Shown here: positions 10,258 through 61,400 of the stretch, piece by piece
Numbering within the stretch: the first letter of the stretch is position 1
Layout: every line of letters starts with the position of its first letter
Assembly: GCA_963969365.1 (NCBI GenBank)
Contig: OZ017756.1
Span: 992,001-1,056,000, forward strand
From: Asterochloris sp. CNOR1
Taxonomy: Eukaryota > Chlorophyta > Trebouxiophyceae > Trebouxiales > Trebouxiaceae
Length of the DNA stretch: 64,000 nt
Direction: 5' to 3'
Translations under genes and position numbers: made by a program
Notes under the pieces: model-generated
Told to the model about the DNA's origin: nothing
The model's database searches: none
Seen by the model: the letters and a program-made list of their open reading frames with translations, nothing else

Positions 10258-13200
10258 GAGTATAGGCTCCAGCCTGGCGGTGGGGCTACTGCCCAGCAGG
10301 CCCCGCAGCAGCCGCCCCGCTTCATGGAGTTTGGAGGACCTCAATTCGGGGCCCCGCAGCAGCAGAAGGGGGGCTTGCAGCAGCAGCCCCCAGCACCCCC
10401 ACAGCAGCAGCAGCAGAGGGGCTTGCCACCGACGCCATCACGCCCGGCCCCTCAACCCGAGCCGCTGCTTGACGGCATGTGCCGCGTGCACTTCTGGCTG
10501 ACCTTTGAGGCGCAGTACGGGCAGCGCATCCGGGTGGTGGGTTCCCACAAGAACCTGGGTGAGCCTGGCTAGGCTGCTGTGTGTCGCCACCTTCATGCAT
10601 GTTCACCCCAAGCCTTGGTCGCTCTGCCGGCTCCCAACTGGTTCATGGTGTCCCTCCTGAAGCCAGCAAAAGTCAGCATGCCAGGACTGCATCTTGAGGG
10701 CCCTGGCTAAGCAGTAATGTCTGCAGCGAGTATGCTCATAGATGAGGCGGTGTTGCCTTGGCAACTGGGTGCAGTCCAAAGCGCCAGCGGAAGCTTGGTG
10801 CACAGGCTGAGATCATTCCCTGCAGGTGCCTGGACTCTGTCTGGCAGCCCAGAGCTGCAGTGGACGCCGGGGCACAGGTGGCACCTCGCCTTGCAGCTGC
10901 CCGCGGGTGCAGTGTTTGAGTACAAGTATGTCCTGCTGGATGGGAATGGCCACGCCATGTCTTGGCAGCGGGGCAACAACTCCGTGCTTGCCATCCGCGC
11001 GGTGAGCATGCAGGGTCTGCGTGGGCACCAAGCCAGCTGCACAGGCGCAGCAAGGCTGCTGCATGCCTGCTGGCACCTGCACTCCAGGATGCTAATCAGT
11101 AGCTGAGGTGCTGGATTTGCTGTGCGATCTGAGTGGCTGTTTGGGTGGCCTGCAGGCCTGTGCCAGCCACATGCATGCTCATGCATGTGGGCATGGCCGG
11201 TTGATGTGCAAAGTGCAAGTGGTGCTGCTCCTGCCCTTGCTAGCCTTGCACCTGTGCATGGCAGCTAAGGCAGGCCACCAGCAGCAGCTCAGCAACAGAA
11301 CTTGCTGTGCTTGCTGGCAGCAAGCAGAGCAGCAGAGTCGCTGCTATACTTGCTAAAAGCCAGGCGTGCACAAGCAGACGACTGAGTCATGCTGATGTGC
11401 CTGCAGTCGGCATCTACGTCAAAGTGTACAGCACAAACTTTGCTGAGCACGATCATTCTACGCTGCACGAATCACACTCCTGCCTGCCTGCTTGCCTGTA
11501 GGATGACAAGGAGCTGGAGGTGCTGGACAACTGGGAGGGGCAGCCAGGGGCAGCGGTGCTGGCGCAGGGCCAGTCCACCACGCGAGAGACCAAGTGAGCA
11601 CTGTCCAGGCAGCACCAGATGAGTGCGCCCTTTTTATGTTTTGTTCGGCCTGGTTGCTGTGCAGCAGTGCACCTGTCAGTGGCCACTCTCATCTGGCCGA
11701 GAATGAGCAGGGCAGCTCCAAGCTTGTCTGCACTCAGCTGCCGGAGCACATGCACTTCCAGGTCAACTCATGCACAGGAGACTGGATTATTTGACATTCT
11801 TTCCATGCAGGCTGCTCAACTGGGCTGCTGACATTGAGCAGCAGATCAGCGTGCAGCGCCAGGAGCTGAGGCAAGCAAAGATTGAGCTGGTGGCTGCTCA
11901 AGAGGTGAGTTCTTGCCCAGATTGCCATGCAGCAGCAATGCACAAGTTTGAACTGTCCACTGCTCAGGAAGTCAATGCGTGTTCAAAGTACCTTGATGGG
12001 ACATGTCCGGGTCTCGGGGCTTGGGTCGCAGAGGTCAAGCGCCAGCTGTGCCCCACAACCCTGTCAGACAACCCTGCCCATCTATTGCCTCTGCTTGATT
12101 AGCTCCAGTGTCCCTGCAGGAGGCGCGCAGCTCCAAGTCTCAGAGCAAGGCTGTTCGGGCTGAGATTGCAGAGCTGAGCAGGGAGTACAAGCAGGTCGGG
12201 CCTCACTATGCCTTGGGATCCTGCTCACCGTGTCCTTGTTCTCGACTACCCACCTAAAACATCTTGCAGCACTCCATGCAACCCAGGGCAGCATGCACTC
12301 CTGCCGCTACTTAGATGCCTGCCACACACTCTATGCTGGATTCTGGCACAGGCTCCTGCTTGAGCATCACCCAAACAACCCTCATAAAGCTCCTGCTTGA
12401 CCATCACGCAAGCATCGCGTATAAGGCTCCTGCTTGACCATCACTCAAGCAAACCTCATTGTCTCATGCTCAGGGAGAGTCAATGTGCATCTCTGTTGCG
12501 GCGCAGGCCCAGGTCAACATGCAGAAGCTGGAGACCCAGAACAAGATGCTCCGCAGGGAGCTGGAGGAGGTCTCAGCTTCCTTCCGGCAGGCCCTGAATG
12601 TCTCCCAGCGCCTGCTGCAGACAAGTGAGCGGCGACAGCTGCAATATTTTCCCTTAGGAGTTGACAGCTTTCAGTCTATGCTGAGAGAGGGGCTACCTGG
12701 ACTGCTGGCCCTCTGCCGCAGTTGCTTCAGAGCAGTACAAGACTGTGTGCAAGACCTTTCCTGGACATCTGGTGGAGGGGTGGTCTAGCCTAAGCATGCA
12801 CTGGTGGACAATGTCGGCTGGCATTGTGTGCAGGCTTCCTATGTACTGCCCGTGCATGTTCCTCCTTTGTTCCTTAACTGAGGGCTCAGCGCTGTTGTAC
12901 CTCATGCTGGCTTGCTCTGGGTTGTGCAGTTGAGGAGCAGCCTGGCTTCAGAGACGGCTCAGGCAAGGATGCTGGCCAGGCGTATGACGCTGACAAATTG
13001 GTGCGTTCCTTTTCTGCTGGTCGTGTTGCTACAGCGGTCACATTCGTCCTCATGCCCGCCAGCACTGTGCACCTTGCCTGTGTGCTGGCCGAACTTCTCT
13101 GCCTGCAAGGGGAGGGTGCCCTTGGCATGCTGTGCACCTTGTTCATGTCTCTCATGTCTAGCCCAAACTCTCTGCTTACAGGCAGAGGCTGCCCCTGCAC

Positions 13201-16200
13201 ACAGTGCTTCCTTCTGCACACTTGTGCAGCTCAGCCTCTCCACGTGCAGGGGGAGGCTGCAGACACAGCCAGCCAGGCTGTTGAGGCATTGGAGGCTGCA
13301 CAGGCAGCTTCTGAGGCCCTGCAGCAGAGCCCTGGGTCTGGGGACAGTGAAGAGGCCACACCCACCGGCTCAGATGGCCCAGAGGCGCTGCCACAGGGAC
13401 AGGAAGAGGCCCCTTCTACAGCGCAGTCAGCAGCCTGGCTGACCACTGATGAGCTCCAGGAACAGCTCACAGAGGACGGCCTTGGTCAGCAGCAGTCCAC
13501 TGGGACTGTGCGGCCCGTGGCCACAGCTGCCAGCCCTGCTGAGCTGCTGTTCCGGAATGATCTGTCCCAGGCAGGAGCCTCCTGGGAGGAAGATGCTGAC
13601 ACCTCAGGGTCTCAGGCCGGTGCCAATCTGATGCGGGATGACGAGTCCCAGGCGGAACCCTCCTGGGACGAGCAGGCGGGCCTGGCGGACCCCCTAGGGT
13701 CTGAGGCTGGTGGTGCTCTGGGGCAGGGCAGCCAGGAGGGCAGCAGTGATGCTGCCAGCCCTCCTGTTGCTGTGCCAGCTCCTGTGGAGGCAGTACAGGA
13801 TGCCACCATGCCCGGCCCAGAGCCAGATGCTGCTGAGGCTGAGGCAGCAACGCTGGAGCCAGCAGCTGCCCCAGCAGCGTCTGACATGCCCTCCTGGGAC
13901 GAGGATGAGCCAGCAGCAGACACGTGGCATGAGGACTTTCTTGAGCCCCAAGGCGGCGCCAATGGGTTGGCAGAGCTCAGTGCACCAGAGCCAGCCGGCC
14001 TGGAGGAGGCAACAGCAGAGCCTGCTGCTGCTGAGGAGGCAGCACCAATGGCCGCAGCAGTGCTCAAGACTGCTGCCACAGCTGCTGACCAGGCAGGCGC
14101 GGCAGAGCCAGCCGGGGCAACAATTGAGCTTGCAGCCACCGCAGTGACCAAGGCTGCTGCACAGTCTGCTGAGGCTACTGAAGAGCAGGATGCATTGGTG
14201 ACCGAGGCCGCTGCGCAGTCCCCTGAGGCTGCTGAAGAGCAGGCTGCAACCAGCGCTCAGCGCGAGGCTGCTGCCGGGTCGGGCCAGGCGCTTTGGGCTG
14301 CTGGGCAACAAGCACAGAGTGGTGCTGGCACACCCACGGGCGACATCCCTGACGGTGTTGGCTTCGCGGCTTTCAGCGAGAGCCCGGATGCCCCACCGGC
14401 GCAGGTGGTCGAGGCCTCTCTGCCAGCCTCGGACTCAGCAGCTGCTACCAGCCCTGACGGGCTGCAGCAGGCAGGGTCTGAGGCGGGCTTCCACCAGCAG
14501 CAGGCGCAAAGTGCGCAATCGGCGGTGGGCTTTGCGCATGACCAGCCAGCGGCGCACGACGCCCTGGCGGCTGAAGTTGAGCCTCTGCAGTCAGCAGCAG
14601 AGACAGATGCTGCAGCTGAGTCCACTCAGCCAGACCCTCGCCTGGGGATTCCGCTGGCCTCGGGGGAGATCCTATTCACCTTTGAGGAGGAGGTAAGCCA
14701 AGACAGCTGTGCTCAGGCACGACACAACACGGCTGAGGTCCTGGAGTAGCCCAGCATGCTGCCTTGGGGCCTGGTGCTGGACTCATGGCTTGTTGTGGGC
14801 CAGAATCTTGCTGTTGGTTTCTGCATACTGTTCACGTGTTTCTTGCAATGTGTGCCACTGTCTACCTGTCGTGGACATGTATTCCTGGGACTGCCACTGG
14901 CCTGGGGCCCATGCTTGCTGCCAGGCAGTGCCAGCTGTCTGGTCCAGGTGAGGCTGTGCATGCCTGCCCAGCTATTGACCATAAGTGTCTGTCATGCTGC
15001 ATGTCATCTTTGGCCTGATGCACTGGCATCAGGTTGCTGTCAACACCAGACAGCGCTGCCAGCATGTCATGTCAGCCTTTATCGAGCGGTGGCTTCACAG
15101 GCAGCCTTGACCGTTGCCATGAACAGAGGATGAGAGCTGGCATGTAGTGGCTCAAACAGCTGCCCGGGCTGTAAAGTTTGACCAGATCAACAACACACTG
15201 TGCATAGGCTGTCAGTCTGCTGCCTGTCACTCCATTCCATGGCATGGTTGCAAGAGGCACTCCATACTCAGGCTGCCTACCTGCCTACAGGACAGCGAGT
15301 CGGAGTTAGACCTGCGCTTCAAGGCCCTGTCCCGGGCAGAGCCAGCTGACCAGCCTCAGCAGCCACAAAGCCCCACGGGCAGCGCAGCTCCCCAGGTAGA
15401 GGCAGCTGCTGCTGGCCCCGAGTCTAGCGAAGGGATGCAGCCACTGAGCCCTGACTCAGAGGCCTCTGGCCTCGCCCTGCAGCGCACTGCCAATACACCC
15501 GCGGCAGCAGCCGAGCTGCCGAGGGTGCGCACCCTGTCAGACATCTTCTACACCTCTGAGGACCTGGATGCGGAGGAGATGCCTGCCAAGTACGCCAGCT
15601 CTGAGGGGGCTGCAGAGGGCGCAGAGGCCCTCAGGTCTGTGCCCTCTGCACAGGAGGCGCAGGCAGGCGTCTCCAGCCGTCTGGCTGTGCAGGTGAGAGT
15701 GTGGTGCATGCTCAGCATTTCACTGGCAGAGAAGCGCTGCAGCTGCTCCCTTTACAAAGCAAGTGCAGGCAGGCGTGTCCAGCCGCCTGGCTGCACAGGT
15801 GAGAGAAATGCATGGCATGCATTTGACAGGCAGGGAGGTTTTGCAGCTGCAAGTCTGCAGAAGAAGCGCAGGCAGGCACGTCCAGCGTGCCAGCTGCACA
15901 TGTGGGTTCCTCAGATCTGTAACCTGATGCTGCCAGGGAGGCTGCAACTGTACTTCTGTGTGGCCCATGGCAATGATCATGCGGCCTGGCCTGGCAGATG
16001 CCAGCCACTGGAGAAGCCACGTAGCTGGGCTCTGCAGGACGTGCTGGTGGCTCTGCTGCCACCTGGTCTTGCGCTGGTGCAAGCCATGGAGGCAAGTGCC
16101 CAATCATGTGCAACTGTGCAGGAGAATGGTGCCGGCCTGCTTGGTGGAGCAGGGCGCCCCAGTGCTGCCAATGGCGGCAACGAGCTGGCGGCCGCATCAG

Positions 16201-19073: not shown

Positions 19074-19258
19074 CTTTGCTGCTCTGGATCCGCTGTGCTG
19101 TCGGCCCAAGAGTTGCTGAGTTGTGTCAGAAGTTACAAGAAGTCAAGTGCCTGGGGCGCCTCAAAAAATATATAATGACAATTATCAATCAAGTAGTAAG
19201 CCAAGCTGTGCCACAGTTGTGGCATCACCCTTCTTCCTCATCTGCCAGCAAACGCAGC

Positions 19259-19514
19259 ATGTCCAACTGGTTGCTGGTAGTCAGCTGCAGCTGCAGGGGC
19301 TGCAGGGTCTCTGTGTGAATTTGCTGAGTGCACCAGGGCCAGCACATGCAAAGGCCCTGGAGCCAGTGTTGAGGGTTGAGTACCTGGACAAGATTCCCAG
19401 CCGGGCTGACCAGCTTGCCAAACTCGCTCACGGCACTGAGAGTGACCCTTTTGATGTCCTGATCATTGGTGGGGGAGCCACAGGCACAGGCTGTGCAGTG
19501 GATGCAATCACAAG
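19259..19514 (+). pseudogene. Orphan copy of GPDH exon 1
   Basis: This matches GPDH exon 1 (20448-20713). From 19348 to 19514 I count only four mismatches in 167 bp, covering the FAD-binding motif [10 protein letters not shown] and the splice donor ACAAG|GTCAGC. The 5' part differs: the ATG at 19259 runs into a stop after about 19 codons, out of frame with the conserved part. No in-frame ATG precedes the conserved segment. It is called a pseudo-exon, although use as an alternative first exon cannot be excluded. Confidence 0.75.
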
Positions 19515-20054: not shown

Positions 20055-20192
20055 CTGAAGCAGCACAGTGGCAAGGGAACTCCGGCAGGTCCTGCGAGGG
20101 GTCCATCAGGTTCTGCTTGCTATGAAGTTGTTGGTCTGGCATACAGCAAAGCTGAGACCAAAGGCCAGCAACGCCATGATGTGCTTGTGCAT
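20055..20192 (-). pseudogene. Orphan, frameshifted copy of exon 1 of the minus-strand secreted gene
   Basis: The copy keeps the start MHKHIMALLAFGLSFAVCQ, but an insertion/deletion just after QTN shifts the frame and brings a TGA a few codons later. The downstream LPEFPC segment survives in another frame. There is no exon 2 beyond it, because the sequence continues into copy 1. Confidence 0.8.
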
Positions 20193-20447: not shown

Positions 20448-23400
20448 ATGCCTCGCACCAGCAGGTTGCTGTGGTCAGCTGCAGCTGCAGGGGCTGCAGG
20501 GTCTTCAGCCTGTGCATATTGGCTGAGTGCACCACGCCCTGCACATGCAAAGGCTCTGGAGCCAGTGTCGAGGGTTGAGTACCTAGACAAGATTCCCAGC
20601 AGGGCTGACCAGCTTGCCAAACTCGCTCACGGCACTGAGAGTGACCCTTTTGATGTCCTGATCATTGGTGGGGGAGCCACAGGCACAGGCTGTGCAGTGG
20701 ATGCAATCACAAGGTCAGCTGCAGCCACCCTTGTTGCGGAGGCACTGCTGTATCTGACATCACTGCAGACTGGCCTGCTTCCTCTGTGGGAGCTGTATGG
20801 CATGTATAAACACACTGCCTCTTGCGTGTTCCATGCCATGTTGCACAAGCTGTTCACATCTGCCGGACAACTCTCAAATTGGGCTGGCGCCCATGCCATG
20901 CCTGAAGGGACCTGAAGTGCGGGAGGACCCTGCGGCTATGCCAGACCATGCTTGCCCTCTTCCACCCGGCAGCCTGCCAGCCCAGGTGTCTGTGTCAAGC
21001 CTGCAGGGGCCTGCGCACTGCTCTGGTGGAGCGGGAGGACTTCGCTGCGGGGACGTCCTCGCGCAGCACCAAGCTGGTGCATGGAGGAGTGCGCTACCTG
21101 GAGAAGGCTGTCTGGAAGCTTGACTATGGGCAGCTCAAGCTGGTGTTTGAGGCATTGCAGGCAAGTGCTCCCAGGTGGCTGCATGACACTGCAGCTGATG
21201 TGGAATGCAGCTGCTGCCCGTGTTCTAGGAAGCATTTGACTGGACTGCGGCATGTGCACTCGGGTGAAGGCGTGCTGTGCATGGTCCTTGAGGGGCTGCC
21301 GCCAAGTGCAACTCGACCCATGCCCTGCACACAGCTCAGGTGTCTGCAGCACCAGGATGACGATAATGATAGCGAACGTGGAGCTGCTGCATGTGCATGA
21401 GGGTGTTGCATTTGCCTTTACAGACCTGCTGCCCTGTGCAGGAGCGGAAGCACATCCTGGACAATGCACCGCACCTCAGCTGCCCCCTGCCCATCATGAC
21501 AGTGAGTGCTTCCTGCACTTGCCAAGTGCTGTCAGCCTGCGCTGCCTCATGCGTTCGCAGGCCCTGGGCTCTGCTGTGCCTGCCTCATGCCACTGATCTC
21601 TGGCTCACATGGCGCCTGCTGCAAATTGGGCAGGCGTGACTGGCTGCCTGACCCACAGTGGCCTGCCCTGCTGCAGCCCTGCTACCAGTGGTGGGAGGTG
21701 CCATACTACTGGATGGGCATGAAGGTGTGCAGCCTGCCTGGTGCAGGTGGAGCGCTTGCGCCTGCATGAAGTGTGAAATGCGGTGCGCACCTGGTGCCCC
21801 CCAGCATGCTGTCCATGTGGGTGCACCGCCCTGCAGCACCTCCGCTGCGTGACGTGGTTCCAACATGCTTCAGAACCCTGCTCCAGAAGGTCTGCAAGCC
21901 TGCCAGCGCCCGCGGGCTGAGGCAGTAGCTGTTGCCTGCTGCCTGCAGGCATATGACCTGGTGGCTGGCACACATGGCCTCACACTGTCGCGGTACGTCA
22001 GCCCCAAGGAGTCCCATCGTCAGTTCCCCACTCTGTCAGAGACACACAGCGTGGATGAGACGACCCGCCACCTCAAGGGCACGGTGAGCGCTTTGCTCAG
22101 CCAGTCAGCCAGCCTGAGGTGATGTCCGGGGGGGGGGGGGGGGGGGCCTGTGTCCTGGTCATCATTGCTCCAGCAGAGATCTGGGTGGTGCACCCTGCCA
22201 GCAGCATGCATGCAGATCGGTGCAGCAACCCTTCATGCAGGGCATGTGTCCTTGAGGTGTGTGCCGCGTCAAAGCAACAGTGTGTACAGATCAGCTGTGT
22301 GTTCTTGCTGGCCAAGCAACTATGTTTTGCCTGCGCTCCTGGGCCAGTTATGATACCCTCCAGGCAGGCAGGCAGGGATGGCACCTTGGGGCATGCACAG
22401 GAGAACTGCTGTGCCGTATGAGGATGTTGAGCTTGCACTGGGGCATCAGTGTGCAGCATGTGTGCACTCGGCGGCTCTACACTGCAGATGTTGAGGAGTC
22501 AGCCAGATCAGGAGGCCCTAGCTGCTGCAGCCCACCTCATCTAGCACCAACCCTGGTGCCATGCCCTGCAGATTGTGTATTATGATGGCCAGATGGATGA
22601 TTCTCGATTATGTGTCACGCTGGCCTGCACAGCTGCCCTGGCAGGCGCTGCAGTTGCCAACCACACAGAGGCCACCAGGCTGATCAAGGTGGGCCAGGCA
22701 GCGCTGCCTGCATGAGGCACAGCATAGTATACTGGTCTGGCTGGCACTGTTGGCCGGTTCAATACAGGCAGTTTGGGCAGCGAGCTGACTTTGCAGCTGA
22801 CAGGCTAGGCTTCACCTGCGGCCTACTCACTAAGCCTCAGGATGGTCAGTGAAATTGTGCTGCACAGAGCAACATGTGCTGGTGTCTACTGCTGCCAGCT
22901 CACATCGCACTTCATGCGCACAAAACACTTTGGTCGCACTGTCGAGCACTGATCTTTGCAGAGGCTGGTCAGCGCAGCCAGTGCTGCAGTTGTGCCTTTT
23001 CACTTGGTGCTTGCTCTTTCTGCCTCAGCTTTCAGAGGCTGCACTGGTCCAGCACACTTAGACATCACCTGCCCCACGTTCTGAGCAGCAGTGTGGTGCC
23101 TGCTGCTTTGGTCTGAGGTCTGACGTCTGCAGGATGAGGATGGGAAGATTGTGGGCTGCCGTGTCAAGGATAACCTGACTGGCAAGCAGCATGATGTATA
23201 TGCCAAGCTGGTCATCAACGCCACCGGGCCCTTCTCAGATGACATCCGCCAGATGTCAGACTCCAGCAGGGTGAGCCGACTGGCCAATTTGCTTCTTGAT
23301 GGCAGCCGCCTGGCCTGACGTCACATGTCATCTGCCAGATGCCTGACTCCAGCAGGTAGAGTGACCCAGCTGAAGAGCCCTTCAGCAGCTCACCATAGGC

Positions 23401-29871: not shown

Positions 29872-32800
29872 CTACTCGTCACCAGCTCCTTCCTGCAGGG
29901 CTTGCAAGCGCTCCTGCGGCACACAAGATCGAGGCTCAGTCCTGGGCAGCATGAACACATACAAAAGTCGGTGCACACTGCAACTAAGTCAGAAAGAGAC
30001 ATGCACAGCACATCGTCCGCTTTGAACTCATGCACACACAATCCACCCCATGCAAGGCGGCTGAGTTGCACAGGCCCACCTTGAGATGCTGCTTGCGCTG
30101 CTCATATGTCAGCTTGGTGGCCTTCCACTTCTTTGTCTCTGCTGGCTTCTTGCGCTCCTTCTTCTTGTGCACAGGGTCAGCACGGATCTTCTCATGCACC
30201 TGTGGGACATAGCAACAGCTGCCTCAGTGACAACTGGTACACAAGCAACGAGGTAAGGCATGGTAGCACTGCTGCCAGAGGTCGGGCAGCAGGAGTCATC
30301 AAGTCAACCTGGGAGGCCAATCAAGGCTGGGTCTTTCTGTTGGCAATGCATTTACCACAATTCTCCATTCATACAGGTTCTGCTGCATCATACCCCTGCT
30401 GGCCTCTGCCACAATCTCAGAAGCCAATCCCTTGACCTATGGGCCTTTGTACTGCACCTGTCCAGTCTTTTTCACCCTAGCCCGTGCTCACCGCAGTGCT
30501 TCTTTGTCTTTCAAACTTACTTGTACTTAGGCCACTGGATACTTGCCTGAGACCCATGGTGCCACGCAGCTCTGTGAGGATACCTGCATGTCACTCCGTC
30601 TGGCAAGGCTGTAGCATAAGCCTGGGTGTTGTGGAGCCCCAGTGCCCACCCTCAAGTCCCAGTGTGTCCACTTACCTCCGTGATTTCGCCCTGCAGCTCA
30701 ATTCCTCCTTGCGCAGATATGCCCAGGATCCACAAAAGCGACAGGCCATGTTGCTGCCACAGATGTACTGCACCCAGGAGGCGCAGCCCACTTGCCAGCT
30801 CATCTAGATTAAGGCACACGTTCAATGAGCCTTGTGAAAACTGTAGCAGCCTGTGAGTCCCCTACGCAAGTAACCGGAGTGCAAGACGACAGCCAGTATG
30901 TCGCCATGAGCCTACCTTTCTCACTGATTCCCTCAGCTTATGACCTTTGCTGCCGTTCTCAGCATACTGGTTCTTATGCTCCCTAGATCCTTGTGATCAC
31001 CAGCAAGCAAGGAGAATCACCAGACAGGTTCCAGCGGAGTGCAGCCCAGTTGCAGGACTTTGGAGACACTCATACACCCCCTCACGTGCAAGGCAACCCA
31101 CCTCCTTCAGGGTGTCCTCCAGCTCCTCGCCCTCAAGCCCGGCCTCAATGTACTTACTGAAGTGCTTGTTGTAATTCTCCTCGCTGTCCTCCTGCATCTC
31201 AGTCATGTACTCGCCCACCTGCAGGCGCGTGAGCACCTTGTCACTGCAGCACATCATCTCAGCGCCAGCAGCGGTCAGTGTCAGCATGCAAGGCCAATGC
31301 AGCTCAGCAGATTGGCTTGCCTCAATTCTCGCAGCTGAATCCCTGGCTGCCACATACAGTGCGCCTGAGTGGCAAAACAGGACCCTGCTGCTTGGTTCAC
31401 TGCCATATCAAACATGCAGCTGCTGCAGCCCATGTAAAGACTTGGCGCAGGAGCCCCTGCCAATCAGATGCCTGCCAGGCTGTACTTGTGCTGCGCATTC
31501 CGCACTCTGCTCGCTTTGCTTTTCAAAATAGCACAGCACAGCAGCCCCTGCCGGTTTGCCGCATGGAATCCACCTCTGCAGCAGGATCCTGCAGGCCAGA
31601 CCTGATTTGCAACTCGACAGTGCAAACCATTGCACAGCAGCCCCTGTCACTCATGTACCCCCCATCCAGGAGGCACACGTGCAGCTGCATCCTGCAGGCC
31701 AGACCCAACCTGCAGTCACGCAGTACAATGCTCTCAGAACAGCCACTGTCACTCACATGCCCGCCCAGAATGTACTTCTTCAGCGTCTCCTCGTCCAGGG
31801 ACTTGCCCTCAGAGCTGTAGCCCACGTACCGCTTTTCGCTGTGGGGGATGTCCAGCCCGCCGTCCAGAGCACCCTGCAGCATTACTGAGAAGGTGACAGC
31901 CAGGTGAATTGGTAAGGCTACAGGGAGGAGGCTGGGTCTTGTGGGACGACTGTGACTTTGTATCACATCCCGGGTGTCAGGTCTCCTGCTGTGTGCAGAG
32001 GCAAGCTGAGGTACACAGAGCCCTGCAGGGGGCAGGCCTTCTTGGTGACACACAGTGTGCATGATGGGGTTGTTTGTGACATGACAAACACTGCAGGCAG
32101 CAGGACCTTGAGCATAACCAGGTTAAGCGAAGCCGGTCTGTGCACAGCCTTGCCCCCTGTGCTCCCACACCCCAGCAAAATGACAGGGCCACCCCACCTT
32201 GAGGGCAGCAAAGACCTTGCTCCCAGTGCTAGTGCGCTTCAGGCCAGTATCGAGCAGGCATTGGAAGGGGCGGGGACCGTCCTCCTGCTCCTCCACAGTG
32301 AAGTCAGCGCCAGTGGCCTCTTCGCTTCCAACGTAAGCCTGCAGGCATGTGCTGAACATTCAGAACAGGCAGGGGCACAGAGGGAGCAGGCACAAGCCTG
32401 CGAGAGCAGCGCTAGTAGCCTTCTTGGTGCCCACGTGGGCCTGCAGGCATGAAGATAAGTTGACTGCCCATGGGTCAGGAAGGCAGTACCAATGAGTCAG
32501 ACCCAGTGGCCTGCTTGCTGCCCATGCACGGACTACAACCTCTCTGACGCTGGTCCAGGCATGCGCGCCTGAAAGACAGCCTGGCAGACCTGACAGACGC
32601 ATCCAGCAGCCAACCTGCTTCTAGCAGCAACTGCATGCACTTGCCTTGTCCAGCTCAAACTTGGTGAGCACGCGGCGCGCCAGCAGCAGGCCAGTGGCGT
32701 AGGCTGCTGCATAGTTAGTCAGCCCGGCATCCAGCCCAAATCCGGGGAGCTCATGGCTGTAGGCGGCGGCAATGATCACGTCGCCTGCCACGGTAGCATA

Positions 32801-40593: not shown

Positions 40594-43500
40594 ATGCCCG
40601 CCATGTTCAGGGCAACAGCACAGCATGTCAGCTTGGTCCCTGCAGGCCACGATGGCCCTGATCAGAGCACTGCTGGAGCCAAAAAGTGCAGATCAGTAGT
40701 CCTGCTGCCCCCAGGCCTGCTCATGTTGTCCGCAGGCAGCACAGCGGTGGCACACTCGGGGCCAGATGTGTGCCAGGGCCCATGCCATTGCTGGAGCACA
40801 CAGCAATGGGGACCCTTCCCGACGGGTGGTCGTGACAGGCATGGGCTTGACCACCTGCCTCGGGCACGAGGTGGACACCTTTTACAATAACCTGCTAGAG
40901 GTGGGTGCCAGGCCCTTGAGAGTGCATGTCTGTCAAGTGGTGCTAGAGCTGGGACACTGGCCCACATGCTTCATTGCTGTGGGGAAGCAGGCATGTGCTG
41001 CGCTTGCCCTGCTAGGGCTGAGGGTCAGTACTCCTCTGCAATCAGACTGGCTTGAGGCTGGACTTGTGAACTTTACCTGCTGGTGGTAGACTGTGCTGCA
41101 AGAGGTTGGACCTGGGGCCAGGCAGTGCGCAGCGCCCAGGCCGTGCAACAGAGGTGGCCGCCCTGCTGGAGGCTAGCACTTAAGACACGTGCTGCTGCCT
41201 TCACCAGAGGCCGAAAACCTACCGGGGCTGGCTCTGCACCAGGCATTTCTAGGACCCTTGTCGTGCAGAAAGCAAGGCACTTGTGCAGAGCCAGCACCAG
41301 GGCAGCTCTTTGTGGCTGAGATCAACTTGTGCTTGCAAAGCATGAGACAATGTCACGGCTGTGCGTGCATGTCAAGCGTCAAATTCTTGACCGGGACGAG
41401 GGGACTGTTCCCATTGACAGCTGCTAGGCGGGTCCCTGAGCAGTTGTGTGCAGGCCTGTCCCATCTGCTGCAGGGGCGGAGTGGGGTGTCTCCCATTGAG
41501 GGCTTTGCTGTGGACGGGTGGGCCACCAGGATAGCTGCAGAGATCAAGGACTTCCAGTGCCAAGGCTTTGTCAGCAAGAAGATGGAGCGGCGACTAGACA
41601 AGTGCATCAAGTACACCATGGTGTCAGGCAAAAAGGTGAGATGTGCATTGGATGTCTTGCATGCGGCTGTAGACTGCGTTGCTCAGCAGTGAGCAGTGGA
41701 AGACAACTGCCAACATGCTCTTAGCCAAGACGGTGCTGACGTGAGGCCTCTAGGTGTTGGAGGCTGAGGGTCATGTATGCAGACGAGTGCATCATGCTTG
41801 CCTCGTAAAAGCAAATCAGCCAAAGCGCCTTCAGGTGACAGGCAAGAAGCTGAGCGAGTTCGTGGAGGCCAGGCATGCCCTGTGGAGTACTGAGCAGCAG
41901 CCACGGTGCTGCAATGGTGCCTTTGGGGACCTGTGCTTGCCGGGGGCTCGATGCTTGAAGCTGACAACCGACGCTGCCTCAAGCAGCAAGTGAGGTGCCA
42001 GGCAAACAAACAAGCTAGGTGGTTGATGCCCCCTCTGTTGAGACACCCTGTGAGCGAACTATGGTCAGTAAAGCTGGAGGCGACCGTGAGGCCTGCTGCA
42101 GGAGCTGCATGCCCGCTCATTAGACAAAAGCACTGGCAGCCCTGACAAGGCCCACACACGTCTTTGCCTGACATGCCATGCTGTACTATGTGGTGGGTGC
42201 TGTCGGCAGCTGCAGTGTCCAGCCACCCCCTTCTGCTGCAGGCACTGCAGGATGCCGGGCTGCCAGCAGACGGCCCAGAGCTGAAAGACATCAACAAGGC
42301 GCGCTGCGGCATCCTCATCGGGTCAGCAATGGGCGGGCTGCAGACCTTTGCCCAGGCAGTAGAGGACCTGGACTTCAAGGTAAGCTGCCAGGGTGGCAGG
42401 CCTTCAGCCGGGCAATTGCCGAGCCTAAAAGGGCAGCAAGGCTCCCATCTTGTACAGTGCCTCATGAGGGGGCAGCCATCAGTGGGTCAGCTGCAAACTT
42501 CCAGCCAGGCTGTGCAGGAACCCTGGACTTCATGGTGAGCAGCAGCAAGAGCCGCACTGTACTCTTTCAGTATGCTTGGTGCCGCTTTGTTCAGCCATCA
42601 ATTGGCAGTCCGCAGGCCCCTATCCAGGCAGTGGAGACTGTGGAGCCCAATCGTGGGTAATGGCTGGCAGCATTGTTTTTGCCAGTGCTGCGCAATCTTT
42701 GTGGTGCTGTCAGGGGGCTGGCAGCGTTTGCCTTGTCATGTGCCATTCATGCATCTGGTTGAGGACATGGCACGCATTGCAGTCCCTGCGTGCACGGTGT
42801 CGCAAGGGCCATTGGCCTGGGCCTGGGTCCTTTCATGGTGTTTGATTGCTGTTCACATGACTTGCAGCGTGCATACTTGCAGCTTCATGTTTGCTGTTCT
42901 GTTTGAACAGCTGCTGCCTGCAGCAGCAAGTCTAATGCCGTGCCAATGCAGTCCTGGGTGTGGCCAGCTTTCCTGCATCAAGTACCAGATTTCAGCAGCT
43001 TCCTGCCTGTTGCTGATTTCAAGAAGAAGCCGCTGCAACAGGGTCTGTCCAAAGGAAGCCCTCTGTGTATTAGCGCCCCAACAGGCCACTCTGCATGCTC
43101 ATCCTTGATCCAGAATTTTGCTGCAGGGTCTGCGCAAGATGAACCCCTTCTGTATCCCCTTTGCCATCACAAACATGAGCAGCGCGCTACTGGCAATGGA
43201 CCTTGGCTTCATGGGGCCAAACTACTCCATCTCGACTGCCTGCGCCACTGGCAACTTCTGCATACAGACGTGAGCCCCCTGCGTTGCAATCTTGCTCCCA
43301 ATGCATGACGTGCTCACCTGCAGCATGTCTGGAGTATTTCTGAGGCTTCGTGGCATGCTGCGCAAGTCCCTGATGGCTCATGGGTGGCCTGCTTCTGGCT
43401 GCTCATGTAGAACGTTGGCAGTGGAAGGTGAGCAGCCATGCTACCTCTGATCACATCTGAGGCAGCCGTGCAGGCGGTGCTTGCTCTAGCACGCACTGGC

Positions 43501-46332
43501 AGCACCGTCTCAAGCTGTGTCGAGCAATGCTGCAGATGCTCTGCCTGTGCTCAGTAGTGCCGCAGCATGGGTGCTCTCTTTGCAGCAACACTCACGCTGC
43601 TGGGCACTGCTGCACCTTGAGACCCACGCCAGTGCTGCAGCAAAGATGCAACACCGCTCTATCCTCTGCTCTGCTCTGGAGTGCTGGGTGGCAGTGCACT
43701 GCAGAAATGGCTCGGTGTTGCAATGTCATTTCGACTTGCACCTGCAGCAACGCTGCCCGCCATGTTTCACAGTGCTGCAGGGCGCATCAAGCATAGAAAG
43801 CCAGGTTGTTGCGCAAAGCCACCTACTGGGCTCTCCAAGCTGCTCTGCAGCGCTGCAGCTGAAGTGCCTGCCTGCCACACCACTTCACCCTCTGCTCTGG
43901 TATAGAGTGCTGTATTTGAGATCCTGTGTGCAACACAGCGTCTCTGCTTTCTGTGCAGCGCTGCGGAGCACATCTGGCGAGGGGATGCCGACCTGATGCT
44001 GGCAGGGGGGACAGATGCTGCCATCATCCCCTCTGGAGTGGCCGGTTTCATCTCCTGCAAGGCGCTGTCCAAGCGCAACGAGGACCCCACCCGGGCATCG
44101 CGCCCCTGGGACCGGCAGAGGGACGGCTTCATCATCGGGGAGGGTGCAGGTTCGTACTTCACGATCTCTACTGTTGTGCAGATGGCATGCTCCTCCGCTC
44201 CGCCACAAGTGTTTCTGCCGGCCAGCCTGGTGGTCATTGGTCAAAGAGCAGCAGATCTGAGGAACTGGCCGCCCCTATCACCTGGCTCCTCTGCTTGAGC
44301 ATTGTTTTCTTTTGCACCCCTCGGGCTGGCAGAGAGACGGCTTTGAGACTGGGATGGGCGCCGCTGCCATGCTGACACTGCTCTCTTTTATACCAATAAT
44401 GGCGATGTGTGTGTGAACAGCGGCTGCAATCTAGCAGGTCTACCTGTTGTCCCTGTGCCACATCCATGCATTGCTGTGCAGGTGCCCTTTGTCTGGAGAG
44501 TTTAGAGCATGCGCAGGCACGGGGGGCGCCCATTCTAGCAGAGTACATTGGCGGCTACTTCACTTGTGATGCCCATCACATTTCAGAGCCCCTGCCGTCC
44601 GGCAAGGGAGTCAGCATGTGCATCGAGAGGTGGGCTCCGCACCTGCTGTGCACGCTCTAAGAGCCAAGCCAGCATGTGCATATGTAGATGTGTGCATCTG
44701 GGCTTCTGCCTGCTGGATAGCACTTGTCAAGTGCCGCTGCCCATGGGCAAGGGACTCAGCATGTGCACCGAGCATGACTGCCTCCTGTGCCCACCCTTCA
44801 GCTGGGGGCCTCATGTGTGTTCAGCATATTGTGCAATTGGGCACCTGCCTGATGCCCAAGGAGTGGCAGCATGGTAGTCAGCACATGCACTGAGGGGTGG
44901 GGCTGCCCTGAGTGGTAGGCAGCACAAGCACTGAGGGGCTTTGCACTGTGCCTGCCTGGTGTGCTCACCTGCATCCGTCAGGTCAGCATGTCACCGAAAG
45001 GTGTGCACCTCAGTGTTCACTCCTGCTCATGATCTCGGGTTGATGTGCCTTGGTGAATGTCTGCCTGACTGGCCTGCATGCAGCCTGCTTGTTGCGGCAG
45101 CCTTGACGAGCATCAAAGGGCAGATCTGCACTGGGACCTCACTTCCTTGCTGCCCTCCTGCTCACAGCCCCTCCTGGAGGCCCTCTGTGCCAACTCTGAC
45201 TCTGCGTGTGGCTCATCTTGTCCTCAGGCTCTTGCTCTTCTCGTCACAGGTTTGTATGTCGCAGCGCTCTCTCTGCCCTATCCGCCCAGTTCGTCGAGGC
45301 AGCAGAGGGCTGCAAGCTGAGTGGGCTGCGCACCTGCCGCAAGCACTCACAGTGCTGTTCGGTGATATGGGTGATATGCTGCAGGGCGCTGCAGCATGCA
45401 GGAGTCATGCCTGACGAGGTCAACTACATCAATGCACATGGCACCTCAACCCCAGCAGGTCTGCAGCAGAAGTGGCCTACGTCTTGTGATGCCCGAAGTC
45501 AAGTTTCTTGTGCCTATCAGCTTGTCTTCCTGAGGTCCGCGTCGACAGCAGCTTTGCCCAGTCTGCTCTCTGCCAGCATCTTCATGCACATCCGGGTTAT
45601 GGTCTGCCTGCCCCCGCTGGTTTGACGCATGCAGCTGACTTCTGCAACTTCTTCGGCGCTCCAGGGCGCTGACCTGTCTGCAGCAAGACCGGCCCAGCCC
45701 CTTTCGACATGCACCCAGCCAGCCATCCACCCTGACAACTTCAAGTTGTATGACTCCCACCAGCCTGCCTGTGAGTGCCTGCAGGTGACATGGCAGAGTA
45801 CCATGCCATCACAAACGCCCTGCCTGGAAAGAATCTGAGAATCAACAGCACAAAGAGCATGATTGGGCACTTGCTGGGGGCAGCAGGCGCTGTGGAGGCC
45901 ATCGCAACCGTGCAAGCCATCCGCACAGGTCTGCACCTTGTCCCTGACCCTGCTCAACCAGCCTGTGCAGATGTTTGAGGGAGGCATCTGGGATGGCTGC
46001 CTGCTGGGCGCAGCTGTGGCAGCCATCTGTTGTGGAAGCTGCTTGTTGGGAAGCATCTGCTTGTGCTTCATGCTGAGGGGCCAGCAGCCAGGAGTCAACC
46101 CACTAGCTGCCACAACGAGGCTCCTAAACGTGTAACAAAGCAACTGCAATGTCCTGGCTGCCATGCAGGCTGGGTGCACCCTAATTTGAACCTTGAGGAC
46201 CCTGAGGACGGAGTTGATACAAACATCCTGGTGGGACCTGAGAAACAACAGCTTGACATTGACGTCGCCCTGTCAAATTCATTTGGCTTTGGTGGCCACA
46301 ATTCTTCGATTCTCTTTCGTGCGTTCAAGTGA
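40594..46332 (+). CDS. KASI: 3-oxoacyl-[acyl-carrier-protein] synthase I, plastid
   Basis: Condenses malonyl-ACP with acyl-ACP during plastid fatty-acid elongation. Ten exons: 40594-40626, 40736-40900, 41474-41635, 42242-42379, 43127-43269, 43959-44149, 44482-44629, 45385-45458, 45785-45928 and 46169-46332; 453 aa. After a basic transit peptide come [46 protein letters not shown], the active-site Cys in [10 protein letters not shown] (~205), [34 protein letters not shown] (His ~345), [15 protein letters not shown] (Lys) and [10 protein letters not shown] (His ~443). The Cys-His-His triad is intact. ACATGN plus GDAHHIS-like residues fit the plant KAS I group better than mitochondrial KAS or KAS II. 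The first exon is inferred. Introns 4 and 7 carry decayed copies of the exon edges. Confidence 0.94.
42360..42660 (+). repeat. Decayed tandem copies of the KAS I exon 4 end in intron 4
   Basis: Exon 4 ends CCTGGACTTCAAG|GTAAGC at 42379. A copy with CCTGGACTTCATG|GTGAGC ends at 42534, and a third, fainter copy (CAGGCAGTGGAGACTGTGG...GGTAATGG) ends near 42660. Offsets are about 155 and 122 bp. The second copy keeps a usable-looking donor. Confidence 0.8.
44600..45015 (+). repeat. Decayed tandem copies of the KAS I exon 7 end in intron 7
   Basis: The exon end GTCAGCATGTGCATCGAGAG (44629) recurs as CTCAGCATGTGCACCGAGCA (~44755), GTCAGCACATGCACTGAGGG (~44877) and weaker forms near 44920 and 44985. 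Spacing drifts between about 40 and 145 bp. Confidence 0.75.
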
Positions 46333-55437: not shown

Positions 55438-58400
55438 ATGGAGGAGCCTGCTTCTCGGGTCCCGAGAAGTCAGGGACAAGAGCAAGAGGATGAGGTGAGC
55501 AGCACTGAGGTGTTTTCGGCCTGCCTGAGCAAGCATGGGGATGTTCAAGCATCAGCAGGGAAGCAGAAGCAGACACAAGCTTTTCAAGGCTTGCTGCAGA
55601 CCTATGCTGTGTTTGCACGTCATGGCAATAAATGACTGAAGGCCAAGCGTAACAAAGATGAGCTGCTGACCTGCAGGCAGCTTGCCGGATTTGCCGAATG
55701 GGCGGGGAGTCAGAGCCACTGTTCTACCCCTGCAAATGCTCAGGCACATCCTTTACTTTATGGCAGCAAGGCGCATGCAAGATTCTGCATCTGGCGAACC
55801 AGCACAACATAGTGCACTGTTGGCTGCAGGAAGCATGCGCTATGTCCACCAAGTATGCCTCAACCAGTGGCTGCAGCACTCGGGCCACAAGCAATGCGAG
55901 GCAAGCGAGGATCATGCCCAGCTGCCTGTGATCCTGCAGACCTGATGCAGGACTTGATGCGGCCATAGAGGTCTGTGTCACCAGAAACCTGTGCTCATGG
56001 CATGCAGGTCTGTGGACATCTGTTCGAGTTCAAGAACTTGTACCGAGCTGATGCCCCAGCCATCCTGCCATGCTGGGAGCTGGCATGGGGACTGCTGCAG
56101 AAGTCAGCCAAGAGCCTCAGGATAGTGGCCAGGGTGAGAGCACTCAGGCACACCAAGGCCAGCCATATGGTCTTCAGATCTTTGGTGCCTGTGACCTCAC
56201 TTTCAGCTCCAAAGTGTGTGCCTGCAGATCGCCCTAGTGCTGCTGATGTGGCTCTGGGTGGTGCCCATCACAACCTGCTGGCTCTGGCGCCTCGCCTTTG
56301 CAAAAAGTATTCAGCAGGTCAGTGTGCACACACCGCCGTGGAGGCAGGAATCCCTCTTGCTGTGCGGTGCCATGCAATTGCCTTGGACTTCTTGTGAGTC
56401 TTGCTCATTCAAGCAGCATAATTTGGCTGTCTCATTGTTAGTTAGCCCACGCTTTGCAGGCCTTTCACACCACTCGTGTCCGCATGCACCCTGTGCTGGT
56501 GTTCGCCGACTGTGTCCAGGTGAGTGCTTTGCCCTTGCCGCCCTTGCTGAAGCTGCAACCTTCACCTGCTTTTCTTGCCCTTCATGGCTTGCTGATGCCC
56601 TGTCCATGCACATTAGGTGCTGGCAGCTTTGCTGTGCCCATTTTGTCTGGCGCCTGCAAGTCTGTGCTTTCTGCCTCGTTGCATGCCCTGCCCTTCATGG
56701 CACACGCTGCGCCCCTGCAGGGTTCGCTCATCACATCTGTGCTGTTCTTTTTGGTGATATTTGTGACATACCTTTGGGACCAGGCCAAGGCTCACTGGGA
56801 GATTCTGCAGCAACCAGTTGGGTTTGGCGGGCAGGAGATGGACCAGGTGGGCTTTCTTGTATGCCTGTGCTTGAGAGATGGAGCCCGCTGAGGGCTGCGC
56901 TGGGTATTGCTCTCTGCTCGATCCCTGCGCTTTAGGGACTGTAGCGTGCTGGGGCTGCTTTGAGCGCTCATGGGCTTCTCTTTGATGATAGTGTAGAGGC
57001 AGGCGCACCGAGCCCTGCTGTTGACATGCACTCTCAGCCTCAAGCAGACTCTTGGTAAATGCGTACCTGCTAGCCAAATGCAATGCTTTCTGCTTTTGTG
57101 CAAGGGGCACACTCCCACAGATGTGGGAGGCATGCTTGTCAGGGCTGCTTCTGTGCCTGCAGGTGCATGTGGCCAACTTCAGGCAGCTGCCAGCCTTTGA
57201 GGCACAGGCAGGTCGCGGGGCTGGAGCAGCCCAGCAGGAGCAGCCAGCTGCTTCTGAGGGCCTGACCTGGCAGCAAGCAGCTGCCAGGATCCGCCAGGTT
57301 GCCGATGCGCAGGAGGCCACTGCTGTGCGGCTGCGCAGCCTGAGAGCCACCCTCTGCCAGCACCAGGCTCAGGGCGGCAACCCACCTGGGTTCAGCAGGA
57401 GCTTCCTGGCGTCACAGGCCAGGCCACAGGGACCTCAGCAGGCAGTACAGGGGGCTTCTGTGTGTTACTCAGGTCCTGTGACTGGCCAGCCAGGAGAGTT
57501 GGGCGTGCCCAGGTGGAATGAAAATGACGGGGCGGCAGGCAGCGGTGGGCATGCTGGCCAGGCGCAGCAGAGCAGTGGACAGCAGAGCCACCAGCCCGCC
57601 TGGATGCTGCGGCACAACCTGTTGGACAGCAGCAGCAGCCTAGACGCGCCTCTGCAGCGCTCAGGTCAGCCACAGGGCGCAGCGCTGTTGCGTGCAAAGC
57701 ATGGCTGGCATCGATGCTGTTAAGGTGTTTGCCTGGCATTGTCGCTGTTGAACTGTATGCTCAGGTCAGCTACAAGGTGCAGTGCTGCTGCGTGCAAAGC
57801 ATGGTTGGCATCATCACTGTTGAACTGTACGCCTGGCATCGCTGCCGCCTGAGGCCTCATGCTCGAAGCATGCTGCTGGTCTTCCTACGCAACCCACTGT
57901 CAGCCTGTGTCAATAGCAGCTTGTGACAGGACCTCTGGGCACTGTGCAGGCAGCGAGTCCTCAGAGCCTGGCTGGCAGGATGCCACCGATGGAGAGCTGT
58001 CTGACAGCGAGCACCTGACGGCTGCATCAGCTGCCACCGCCCTGCTGGCTGGCACAGCGAAGCATTGCCCTCGCACGGCTGCCGCCAGGGGCAGGGGCAG
58101 CAGCCTGGCCTCAGACCTGGACGCTTCAGATGCTGAGGCAGACGCCCACATGCAGCTGCAAGACGCAGGGCAGGCCAGTCCCTTGGCCTTGGAGGCTGAG
58201 ACAGGCAGGCATAGCCCCTCAAGCAGTGGCACATTGCAGGGCAGCACAACAGCAGAGCCACCAAGTGTCTCTGTGCAGCCGCCACCACCTGCGTTTGGCA
58301 GTGCAGAGCAGTGCCAGGACCTGGCCCACCTGCTGCGGCTGAGGGGCACCTGGCTGCTGTCGCAGCTCGACTGGCTGCAGCAGGTGCACACCTGGGCACA

Positions 58401-61400
58401 CATGTGGGCAGTGGAGTCCCTGGAGGCCGGGGATGGCCCGGGCGGCGTCACCTGCGCCCACAGTCGCGCCCAGAATGCGGCGGTGGCCAAGCTGTACGCC
58501 GTCCTGCTGCACAGTCTGAAGCAGGCCACAGAGGCTGCTGCGGAGTTGTGCCAGCAGCAGACAGCTCAGCCGCAGGGGCCCTGCACAGGGAGCTCGCAGA
58601 TGCTCAACACGTCCTGCGATGGGGTATCTCCCTTGGAGGGCTGGCTGGAGGAGGTGCACCAGCGCGCCAGGTTCATGCAGGTGAGGGCGTTCCACCTGTC
58701 GCAGGTCAATGCAAGCTCCGCATCTCACACTATGGTGCTTCAGGGATAGCTGTCGGACTGAGCCATGCCCCTAAGTGTCTTGTGGTGTGCACAGCCTGGG
58801 CGGCGGCACACTCAAATGATTTATCCTACTGTGATCCTCAACTGTGCTCTCATGACTCTTAAGCTGTATGTACTATGGCAGGTTGCACAGGCAGGGCACT
58901 GTCAGAAGTTGCTTCTGTAGCAGGGCATTGCTATGTTCTGCAGGTTCTGCTGCAGGCCAAGGCATCCCCGTCAGAGTTCATGCATGTCACAGCTGCAATC
59001 CGCCTGATGCTGCAATCTGTCATTGTGCTCTGCAGGTGCTGCTGCAGGCCAATGCATCCCTGCCAGAGGACAGGGAAGCCACAGCTGCCACCCTGCTGGC
59101 CGCAGTGGAGGCTTGCGCGGCGGCCAACAGCGCCAGGGCACACCAGCGCCGGGGGCGCCCTGTTTTGCTGCTGGATGCTGGGGCCCAGGGCAGCAGCAGC
59201 CTGGATGCAGGGCAGCTGACGGACGCCAGGCTGTGCACGCTGGCGCTGGCTGCCAAACTAGAGGCAGCCATGGACCGGCAGCTTGCAAACTCTGGGCACG
59301 CTCCAGCTGCTGGCATGGGCAGGGGCGGGGCAGACCAGCCAGCTGTGCGCCCACAGCCCAGGGTTGCTGATGCCGGCAACACTGGCAGGGGGGGATCAGG
59401 CGAGTCGGCTGCGGCCTCACAACTCCTGGCAGCTGCGGCTGGCAGCCAGAGCGACCTGAGCTTGGTCAGCTCCAGCACACGAGAGCTGATGGGGGGGACC
59501 ATGCAGCGGGCCTGGCAGGCTGCCCTTCCTGAGGGACTGCGCCGCCTCTACCCACTCACTCTGGGAGAGGCCCACCCTCAATTTTGGTCCTGCCTGCGCT
59601 GGTACAGCCCAGAGCAGTGCAGCAGCTGGGCCCCGCCTGATCCTGCAGCAGAGCTGCTGGGGTCCGGGCCAGCCACCAGGGCCCTCGACCTCAGGTGAGC
59701 AACCTGGATGAGGCCTGCTGCCATGCATGCGCCTTCTGCTGGGCCAGCCTGGCCGGTCATCATGTTGCACCTACACAGCACACAGCTGGCAGCCTTTGCC
59801 AGTCACCAGGGCTGATCAGCAGCAGGCTCGCTGTTTGCAACCTGCTGGAGTCACACCCACACCGTGCCTGTCCTGCAGGTATCACCTGGACCTGTGCTGG
59901 CAGTGGCGCTCTGAGGAGCCAGACAGGGCTGCGCTGGACAGGAAGCTGGGCATGGAGGGCCTCACCAGCGCAGCCGCCTTTGCAGGTGATGACTCTGCGG
60001 GAGGATGTTGAAATCATCTGGACATGCAGCTCTGATGAAAACTCCAGCAAGGCTTTGTGGTGCTGAACAACAGTGCAGACCTTGTGACAGCTTCAAGCAA
60101 ACTGCTTCGTCGGCGGCCAGACTTTGGACGTTGCTGTTCATTGTGTTGAGTGCCTCTCCTTTGACCCTTTTGTCCACGCTGCTCACAGGTCTGACTCGCC
60201 TGGCTCTGCGAGCTGAGACGGAGGCCTTGCTGGACAGGGCTGCAGGAGCTGGGGCTGCGCAGCATGGCCCTGTAGCCCGGGTGCCCACAGCGCTGGAGGC
60301 TGCCCCTCCTGCAGTCCCTGTGGCGGAGGAGGTGCTGCCTCTGGAGGAGGTTGTGGGCCTGCAGGGCTCCCTGCAGAACCTTCTGGCCAATGTGAGCTTG
60401 CTGGGTGGTGTGGCGCAATGCATATCAAGCTGCACACGCGCCAGCTGCAAAGTTTGCAGGGTTCCCAGGATGACACATTTTGGCCAATGCCAGCCTGCAG
60501 AGAGATTCTGTCCCCCTGCTTGACCTTTGTGCAGCTCACTTCGGTGCTTCTTCCACCCCAAAGGGCGGCTGGATTGATTGCAGCCGCCAGGTGCAGACTC
60601 GTGACCCCCTGAAAACTGGCTGGTTGGTGTGGAGTCCAGGTCCAGGCCACCTGAGGTTGCTGACCTTCACTTCCCTGCCGTGCAGGTGGGCAGCATTCTG
60701 GTGTGCACAGGACTATTCATGCTGGGCGCTGTGCTGGTGCCTGTCGTTCTGGGCAGGTGAAGTGTGTGATGCATGGCGCCTGCCCTGCTCGCAAGGAGTT
60801 GCACTCTTTGCCAGAAGTCTCGCTGCTCTTCTCGCTGTGAAGTGGACGCCGCTGCATGCAGGGTCGTGCTTACCGTCATGGTGAACTCCTTTGCCTGGCT
60901 GCCCTCTGAGACAGCGCTGGGACAGGCCGTCAAGCCTTTGCTGACCCAAGTATACATGCAGGTGGTTTTGGTCCACCCAATTTGTCCTGGCAGTTTGTCT
61001 CACCTTCCACTGCCCGCATGCTGCCTTGCTTGTCAGTTCGCGAAGTGGTTGCCCATCATCCACAGCCAGCTTGCCACTGGCTGCATCTCAGGCCCGCTGC
61101 TTGCCTGCAGACTCAGTACAATGCCACCAGCGCCACAGATAGCATTGCTGCAGTAGGCACTGCAGGCAGCAACACCACTGCTGCTGCGGAGGGGCAGGTG
61201 CTGACATTGAGGCGACTTGCCAGTGAATTCGAACATCATCTGGCAGGTGAGCTGGTCACGCTGAATGCAGACGCTGTCTGGTCTTGCTCATGGCTGTTGG
61301 AGGCAGTTGCAGGGGTGCTGGTGCCGTCCATTCGTTGACTGTGAATGGCTGTCTTACACACACATTCAGCAGCTGCTCTTTCTTGTGGCAGGGCCAAGTA

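Follow-up and report, generated by a model that had tools for sequence, protein, structure and literature searches.

According to one review, tandem duplication is the only route of intron gain shown in vivo (PMC3443670), and in the RdRp gene of potato a tandem duplication across an intron–exon boundary, with gain of an intron, has been described (PMC4974935). Small tandem duplications are produced in mammalian cells by end joining of staggered breaks (PMC8355091, PMC5730883), and work on such duplications in Arabidopsis and rice is cited in the same two papers (Vaughn and Bennetzen 2014, Schiml 2016); the insertions treated in PMC8355091 are short ones (<100 bp) in human, with overhangs of about 43–50 bp in its tests. 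The stretch described here, 64 kb from the green alga Asterochloris sp. CNOR1 (contig 11, OZ017756.1, positions 992001–1056000, referred to below as the window), contains introns in which the edge of the adjoining exon, in a number of cases together with the splice site, is repeated as a decayed direct copy. Similar copies are found throughout the further sequence sampled from the same genome. They are probably the products of many old, roughly randomly placed direct tandem duplications, of which those straddling a splice junction lengthened introns while the intronic copy decayed.

The first-pass annotation of the window had listed seven introns as holding such a copy, and all seven are borne out. 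Each was re-aligned to its own exon edge and compared with 1000 shuffles of that intron; the match was equalled by none of the shuffles in six introns and by one in the seventh. On the forward strand, intron 10 of the CBM20 gene (15642..15904) repeats the exon edge 15642–15692 and the intron start at an offset of 106 bp (15748 onward), and a third, weaker copy is present at 15854–15886 (offset 209). The second copy retains the donor CAG/GTGAGA (the slash marks the splice site), equal in strength to the real donor. In the GPDH gene (23235..23356, forward strand), the last 36 exon nucleotides before intron 7 (to 23270) are repeated at 23321–23356, at an offset of 86 bp. The copy in intron 5 of RPL5, on the reverse strand, lies on the acceptor side (32305..32451; exon start 32338, copy 32407–32451, offset 102). 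Two introns of the forward-strand KAS I gene are included: in intron 4 (42324..42543) the exon edge and the donor at 42379 recur at an offset of 153 bp, with a second, weaker match at offset 272 (score 27), and in intron 7 (44585..44901, donor 44629) the exon edge is repeated at offset 145 (44730–44772), with a third copy at 44869–44901, the offset of which, 267, equals 145 + 122. The remaining two, also on the forward strand, belong to a gene called Doa10 in that annotation, a name used here as a label only, because a Pfam scan of its protein gave no family. In its intron 8 (57659..57839, donor 57664), the donor site and the first ~75 intron nucleotides are duplicated at offset 100 (81 bp at 81.5%); this unit is almost wholly intronic, with ~5 exon bases, and it is here that one shuffle equalled the 16-nucleotide edge match. 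In intron 9 (58934..59088), the acceptor CTGCAG/G and the exon start at 59036 are repeated upstream at offset 92.

Five additional edges were tried, of which two carry a copy, in both cases equalled by none of 1000 shuffles. One is the KAS I donor 44149 (44100..44343, forward strand, offset 214), absent from the earlier list; the other is an acceptor-side junction duplication beyond the range of that list (2079..2303, forward strand; exon start 2253, offset about 138–139). The other three are unremarkable against 1000 intron shuffles: RPL5 donor 31757 (equalled by 3), RPL5 donor 32198 (28) and GPDH acceptor 24651 (627). The weak match at donor 31757 has a different offset from an intron-internal tandem duplication that adjoins this edge (31577..31755, reverse strand, offset 103) and has no clear exon copy. 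Over the whole window, a self-BLAST yields 24 plus-strand self-matches at offsets of 50–199 bp and 32 at less than 400 bp, compared with 1, 1, 1, 1 and 3 at less than 400 bp in five dinucleotide shuffles.

Six of the 12 gene models in the window were scanned against Pfam, and five of the six proteins gave clear families: diphthamide synthesis, FAD-dependent oxidoreductase with the alpha-glycerophosphate oxidase C-terminal domain (GPDH), RPL5, ketoacyl synthase, and CBM20, the last via a fragment. The predicted RPL5, KAS and GPDH proteins align to solved proteins across the exons concerned. The density of introns, the starch-binding CBM20 protein and the ketoacyl synthase are in keeping with a green alga. 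The sample as a whole comprises the window and 250 kb from contigs 1, 2, 3, 4 and 11 of the 56.4-Mb, 21-contig genome, that is, six blocks and 314 kb, to which all counts below refer. Gene structures were taken from a self-written two-strand hidden Markov model gene finder trained on the same 314 kb, its models being predictions with no RNA basis; it called 54 genes with 674 introns, and its trained splice consensus is CAG/GTGAGC for the donor and CTGCAG/G for the acceptor. The modelled 3′ splice site is nearly invariant (T 0.88, G 0.91 and C 0.95 at −5 to −3), GC donors make up ~7% of the donor matrix, and 32 of 542 modelled introns have a non-GT start. Short called exons are unreliable, and those under 40 nucleotides were counted as intron in the pair classes and edge tests.

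When up to 60 nucleotides of each exon edge were aligned against the adjoining intron, with introns shorter than 45 or longer than 2500 nucleotides removed (542 introns left), 46 of 1084 edges matched their own intron at a score of at least 30 (32/542 upstream and 14/542 downstream). Exons of other introns gave 2 matches in 5420 (0/2710 upstream, 2/2710 downstream), and reverse-complemented edges gave 1/1084. With strongly coding exons only, the counts are 19/235 donor and 12/238 acceptor edges (31/473), compared with 0/4730 in controls. A recognisable exon-edge copy is present in 44 of the 542 introns, and these introns are longer than the others (median 494 compared with 262), although a long intron also has more room for a copy. 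Junction pairs are found in all five blocks outside the window, so that the pattern is not confined to the few introns in which it was first noticed. The accompanying description of copies as progressively degraded away from the real exon holds only in part, since the nearest copy is the best one in 5 of 14 edges with several matches (score at least 26), one more being ambiguous; progressive decay with distance is not a general rule.

The copies are part of a larger population of tandem pairs. A census at offsets of 50–400 bp and at least 34 bits, with one pair kept per overlapping cluster, found 80 non-redundant direct tandem pairs; before merging there were 106 raw direct matches at offsets of 50–399 bp, compared with a single inverted pair when the same score cut-off and a limit of 400 bp are applied, which rules out inverted repeats or hairpins. 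The units are 64–275 bp long (median 113), and the copies are 67–96% alike. Chance similarity is ruled out by the shuffles and by the controls with other exons. The size spectrum was obtained with an ungapped scan of our own, which includes shorter units, because BLAST gave no match at offsets below 50 bp despite the presence in the window of an intron-internal array with a 37-bp unit (12352..12459, forward strand; 2.9 copies, 80% matches). This spectrum lies well above shuffles, with a broad maximum at 80–109 bp (2.3–2.6 per offset) and a drop past 150 bp; offsets of 15–19 bp are also raised, up to 2.4 per offset. In this genome 6.8–13.2 segments per 10 kb are found, and one 50-kb stretch of Escherichia coli has 0.6.

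By position, 25 of the 80 pairs are junction-intron, 18 exon-intron, 22 intron-intron, 6 exon-exon, 4 double-junction, 4 intergenic and 1 mixed; if the same pairs were placed at random, the expected numbers would be 14.0, 13.2, 25.6, 6.6, 5.2, 8.9 and 6.5, respectively. The edge searches covered 50–60 nucleotides, and with regard to copies of whole exons a few pairs, the 4 double-junction ones, are present. In their direct orientation and adjacency, the copies have the structure of small tandem duplications, and the junction units span the exon–intron boundary and copy the splice signal: where a donor copy is aligned over the site (18 of 32), GT is kept in 15, and 14 of the 32 are not covered there.

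Another possibility is that dispersed mobile elements (introners, present in diverse eukaryotes according to PMC9860276) or assembly artefacts mimic tandem copies. Three regions were searched in the genome, those of CBM20 intron 10, KAS I intron 7 and Doa10 intron 8, and each of the three occurs at a single genomic place, in a search that skips very common words; no dispersed family of similar introns was found for any of them, and dispersed elements are rejected for these regions. Copies that are 67–96% alike are too diverged for assembly duplication. We give an origin by either route almost no credence.

What became of the duplicated junctions is sorted by selection. With introns shorter than 80 nucleotides removed and a score of 28, exon edges are copied into their own intron at 32/502 donors and 15/502 acceptors (47/1004), whereas intron edges are copied into their own exon at 5/457 donors and 2/456 acceptors (7/913; Fisher p 1.3e-5 for donors and 0.0026 for acceptors); the searched sequence was unequal, 148 kb of intron and 74 kb of exon, and the bias is 3–4 fold per kb, not the 6–7 fold of the odds ratio. 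Junction duplications, in other words, lengthen introns rather than exons. The reading frame is kept within exons only: among exon-internal pairs, 5 of 6 have a unit length divisible by three, compared with 17 of the 65 junction-intron, exon-intron and intron-intron pairs (p 0.0095), and these 65 pairs have no overall frame bias (p 0.24), the three classes contributing 11/25, 3/18 and 3/22, respectively. Copies are commoner on the donor side than on the acceptor side (p 0.016 for the counts of 32 and 15 in 502), a difference that is not clear among strongly coding exons (p 0.20). If this excess is real, it may be that splicing passes over a donor copy downstream more easily than an acceptor copy upstream.

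Young copies are scarce. An identity of at least 90% is found in 6 of the 80 pairs, in 1 of the 48 with at least 50 aligned bases and in 4 of the 65 junction and intron pairs; a simulation with uniform ages, constant rate and neutral decay places 867 of 1982 pairs (44%) at this level. A tandem-repeat finder reports 20 array rows with a unit of at least 30 bp, of which two have at least 90% matches, one of them within a predicted exon. Either the duplications stem from an old episode, or direct repeats disappear while still young, before divergence sets in. This scarcity, which was not among the claims of the first-pass annotation, is the least explained part of the pattern. The least decayed long duplication in the sample lies in the contig 11 block at 26807–27016 (L024:6807-7016); its unit of 108 bp (36 codons), 93% identical, is in a predicted exon.

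The interpretation originally given to the seven introns, in which a splice junction was tandemly duplicated and one of the copies stayed behind in the intron, is supported in part: the copies are direct and adjacent, at a single locus in the three regions searched, but a process specific to junctions does not follow from the data. Duplication blind to junctions was simulated with the functional exon copy constrained and neutral decay elsewhere; units that spanned more than one junction, lay within an exon or were mostly intergenic were dropped, and class shares were computed over the 65 pairs of the three classes named above. Junction pairs remain detectable longer because one copy sits in a conserved exon. 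An age floor set at 0.10 substitutions per site per copy gives simulated shares of 0.36/0.24/0.40 for junction-intron, exon-intron and intron-intron pairs, compared with 0.38/0.28/0.34 observed (p 0.20); with a floor of 0.15 they are 0.33/0.38/0.29 (p 0.83), and the median aligned unit fraction, 0.48, is the observed value. At both floors the junction excess disappears. Among simulated units that avoid the exon interior, ~45% straddle one splice junction. Splice junctions need have no special part in the process.

Several results, in addition to the smaller bias per kb given above, weigh against the preferred explanation of roughly randomly placed duplications sorted by selection. The excess of junction-intron pairs (25 compared with 14.0) is significant, with 1 in 300 random trials as high, and the intergenic deficit (4 compared with 8.9) is marginal, 7% of trials being as low. 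With uniform ages, the fraction of simulated detected pairs that touch a junction is 0.44–0.53, below the observed 43/65 = 0.66 (p about 0.02 or less). Only once this uniform-age model had failed was an age floor chosen, post hoc, and two of the four floor settings overshoot, with junction-touching fractions of 0.87 at a floor of 0.20 and 0.95 at a floor of 0.15 combined with a high indel rate. The run with a floor of 0.15 has 22 of 569 pairs below 75% identity, fewer than the 18 of 80 observed. At a score of 26, two or more copies are present at 15 of 66 copy-bearing edges, where ~4 would be expected under independence; repeats once present may give rise to more. The donor excess is not predicted by a blind process without selection on splicing. 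As the floor was added post hoc, the simulation shows that junction targeting is unnecessary, not that it is absent.

The first-pass annotation had proposed a process specific to junctions, in which the splice junctions themselves would be duplication hot spots through R-loops, shared motifs or co-transcriptional breaks. The junction-intron excess and the intergenic deficit, the shortfall of junction-touching pairs in the uniform-age runs and the edges with several copies are all in favour of such hot spots. However, the blind simulation fits at floors of 0.10 and 0.15, intron-internal (22) and exon-internal (6) pairs occur as well, and counts of merged pairs per 2-kb bin give no sign of clustering (variance/mean 0.9), a value to be read with the fact that merging itself removes overlapping clusters. 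We regard hot spots at junctions as unlikely.

The copied splice sites could also be regarded as functional, the copies being kept as cassette mini-exons or alternative sites. Among the 18 covered donor copies, the matrix score equals that of the real donor in 6 and exceeds it in 2. In 8 of 43 intronic copies the gene finder places a mini-exon, where 2.4 would be expected (p 0.002); one of them, in CBM20 intron 10 (15769–15798), would extend the protein by 10 residues, in frame, that repeat the end of the exon. The 11 of 25 junction-intron offsets that are multiples of three point in the same direction. Nevertheless, retention of GT is close to what identity alone predicts (13 of 18), the remaining 14 of 32 donor copies are unaligned over the site, and the frame bias is missing over the 65 pairs outside exons. 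A functional role as the reason for which copies are kept is very unlikely in our judgement, and the spare sites presumably lie idle. For annotation, the practical warning is that sites within copies draw mini-exon calls.

Nor do the copies appear to be the remains of events that created introns, by tandem duplication of the type described by Rogers and by Gao and Lynch. Donor CAG/GTGAGC and acceptor CTGCAG/G have CAG/G in common, so that a duplicated junction could supply both sites, and the potato duplication, as described in PMC4974935, spans an intron–exon boundary. Such an origin would leave an in-register resemblance between the exon end and the intron end, or between the intron start and the exon start. 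With introns shorter than 80 nucleotides and short exon edges removed (502 of 542 left), no intron reaches at least 18/29 on either side, where 0.15 and 0.1 would be expected by chance, and at 16/29 there are 1 and 1 of 502 compared with 1.45 and 1.9 by chance. Gain of the AGGT type is rejected on the basis of this absence of a register signal in a test that detects recent gains and is blind to old ones; as an explanation of the copies, intron birth seems to us highly improbable.

The preferred explanation, that of old and roughly randomly placed tandem duplications, may be pictured as follows. Many direct tandem duplications, mostly of about 60–275 bp with a median near 113 bp, would have arisen more or less at random along the genome, the presumed mechanism being error-prone repair of staggered breaks. 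Exons and introns being so short, a little under half of the units avoiding the exon interior would straddle one splice junction. If the exon-proximal site stayed in use, the extra exon tail and its splice site would end up inside the intron, which would gain one unit; selection would then hold the coding copy, leaving the intronic copy to decay. Discussions of intron length usually centre on transposons and small indels. More tentatively, the introns of this lineage might have been lengthened by ~100-bp tandem duplications, either during an old episode or in a continuing process that soon loses its young products, with selection sorting the survivors such that those at junctions mostly enlarged the intron. 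Spare splice sites, decaying but in part intact and more numerous on the donor side, would then be stored across the genome as a possible source of new isoforms; this wider reading is possible but doubtful. The genome of Asterochloris sp. CNOR1 would in any case be a compact one in which recognisable junction-spanning tandem duplications add to intron growth, and since growth of introns rather than exons can be counted, it constitutes a natural experiment on splice-site choice.

Some larger or exon-internal duplications were observed beside these copies. In the window, positions 18503–20887 hold a 1.19-kb tandem duplication, 81–87% identical, that spans the first coding exon of the GPDH gene; the start of the FAD-binding region is predicted twice, at 19306–19514 and 20465–20713, and one of the two may serve as an alternative first exon or be a decayed one. 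At 13547–14248, within the long exon of the CBM20 gene that is rich in Ala and Glu, there are repeats at offsets of 81 and 198 bp as well as 1.9 copies of a 54-bp unit, all multiples of three. In the contig 11 block, a tandem duplication of 387 bp at 6184–6987 (L022:6184-6987), 81–82% identical, takes in an entire donor region. An RPL5-based search of viral_contigs and genome_contigs for relatives found none.

Comparison with the described systems shows in which respects the copies in Asterochloris are familiar and in which they are not. Among the open-access matches listed, as judged by titles and the starts of abstracts, none deals with junction-spanning tandem duplications that lengthen introns genome-wide, most subscription papers falling outside this scope. 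The potato RdRp gene, as described in PMC4974935, is similar in that a direct duplication crosses an intron–exon boundary and the splice signals are copied, and it has in addition an 83-bp tandem duplication within intron 1. There, however, a new intron was gained, whereas in Asterochloris existing introns were apparently lengthened, 44 of 542 are affected, and the copies are decayed. The AGGT-type gains of Rogers, Gao and Lynch, and Hellsten, as presented in PMC3443670 and PMC4974935, share with the present case a small tandem duplication within genes and the similarity of donor and acceptor motifs, but here none of the 502 tested introns was recognised as an exonic duplicate.

In the study of tandem exon duplications (PMC9013439), homologues of exons were likewise sought in introns of the same gene, and the fraction of exonic nucleotides with a non-exonic homologue is given as 0.08% in fly, 0.06% in worm and ~2% in human. 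In the present sample ~1.1% of exonic nucleotides have a non-exonic homologue of at least 80% identity in the same gene region (31 matches, 5 of them at more than 600 bp), a value obtained with another tool and only roughly comparable. Unlike the duplicated exons of that study, many copies here cover the exon edge only, and the lack of frame bias in their lengths sets them apart from tandem or mutually exclusive exons, the copies of which are frame-compatible. The direct tandem units resemble those produced by end joining of staggered breaks (PMC8355091, PMC5730883), but many units are longer and their breakpoints are too decayed for microhomology to be read. The kind of event is thus already known; new are its scale, the sorting of its outcomes, its decayed, intron-lengthening form, and the missing young copies.

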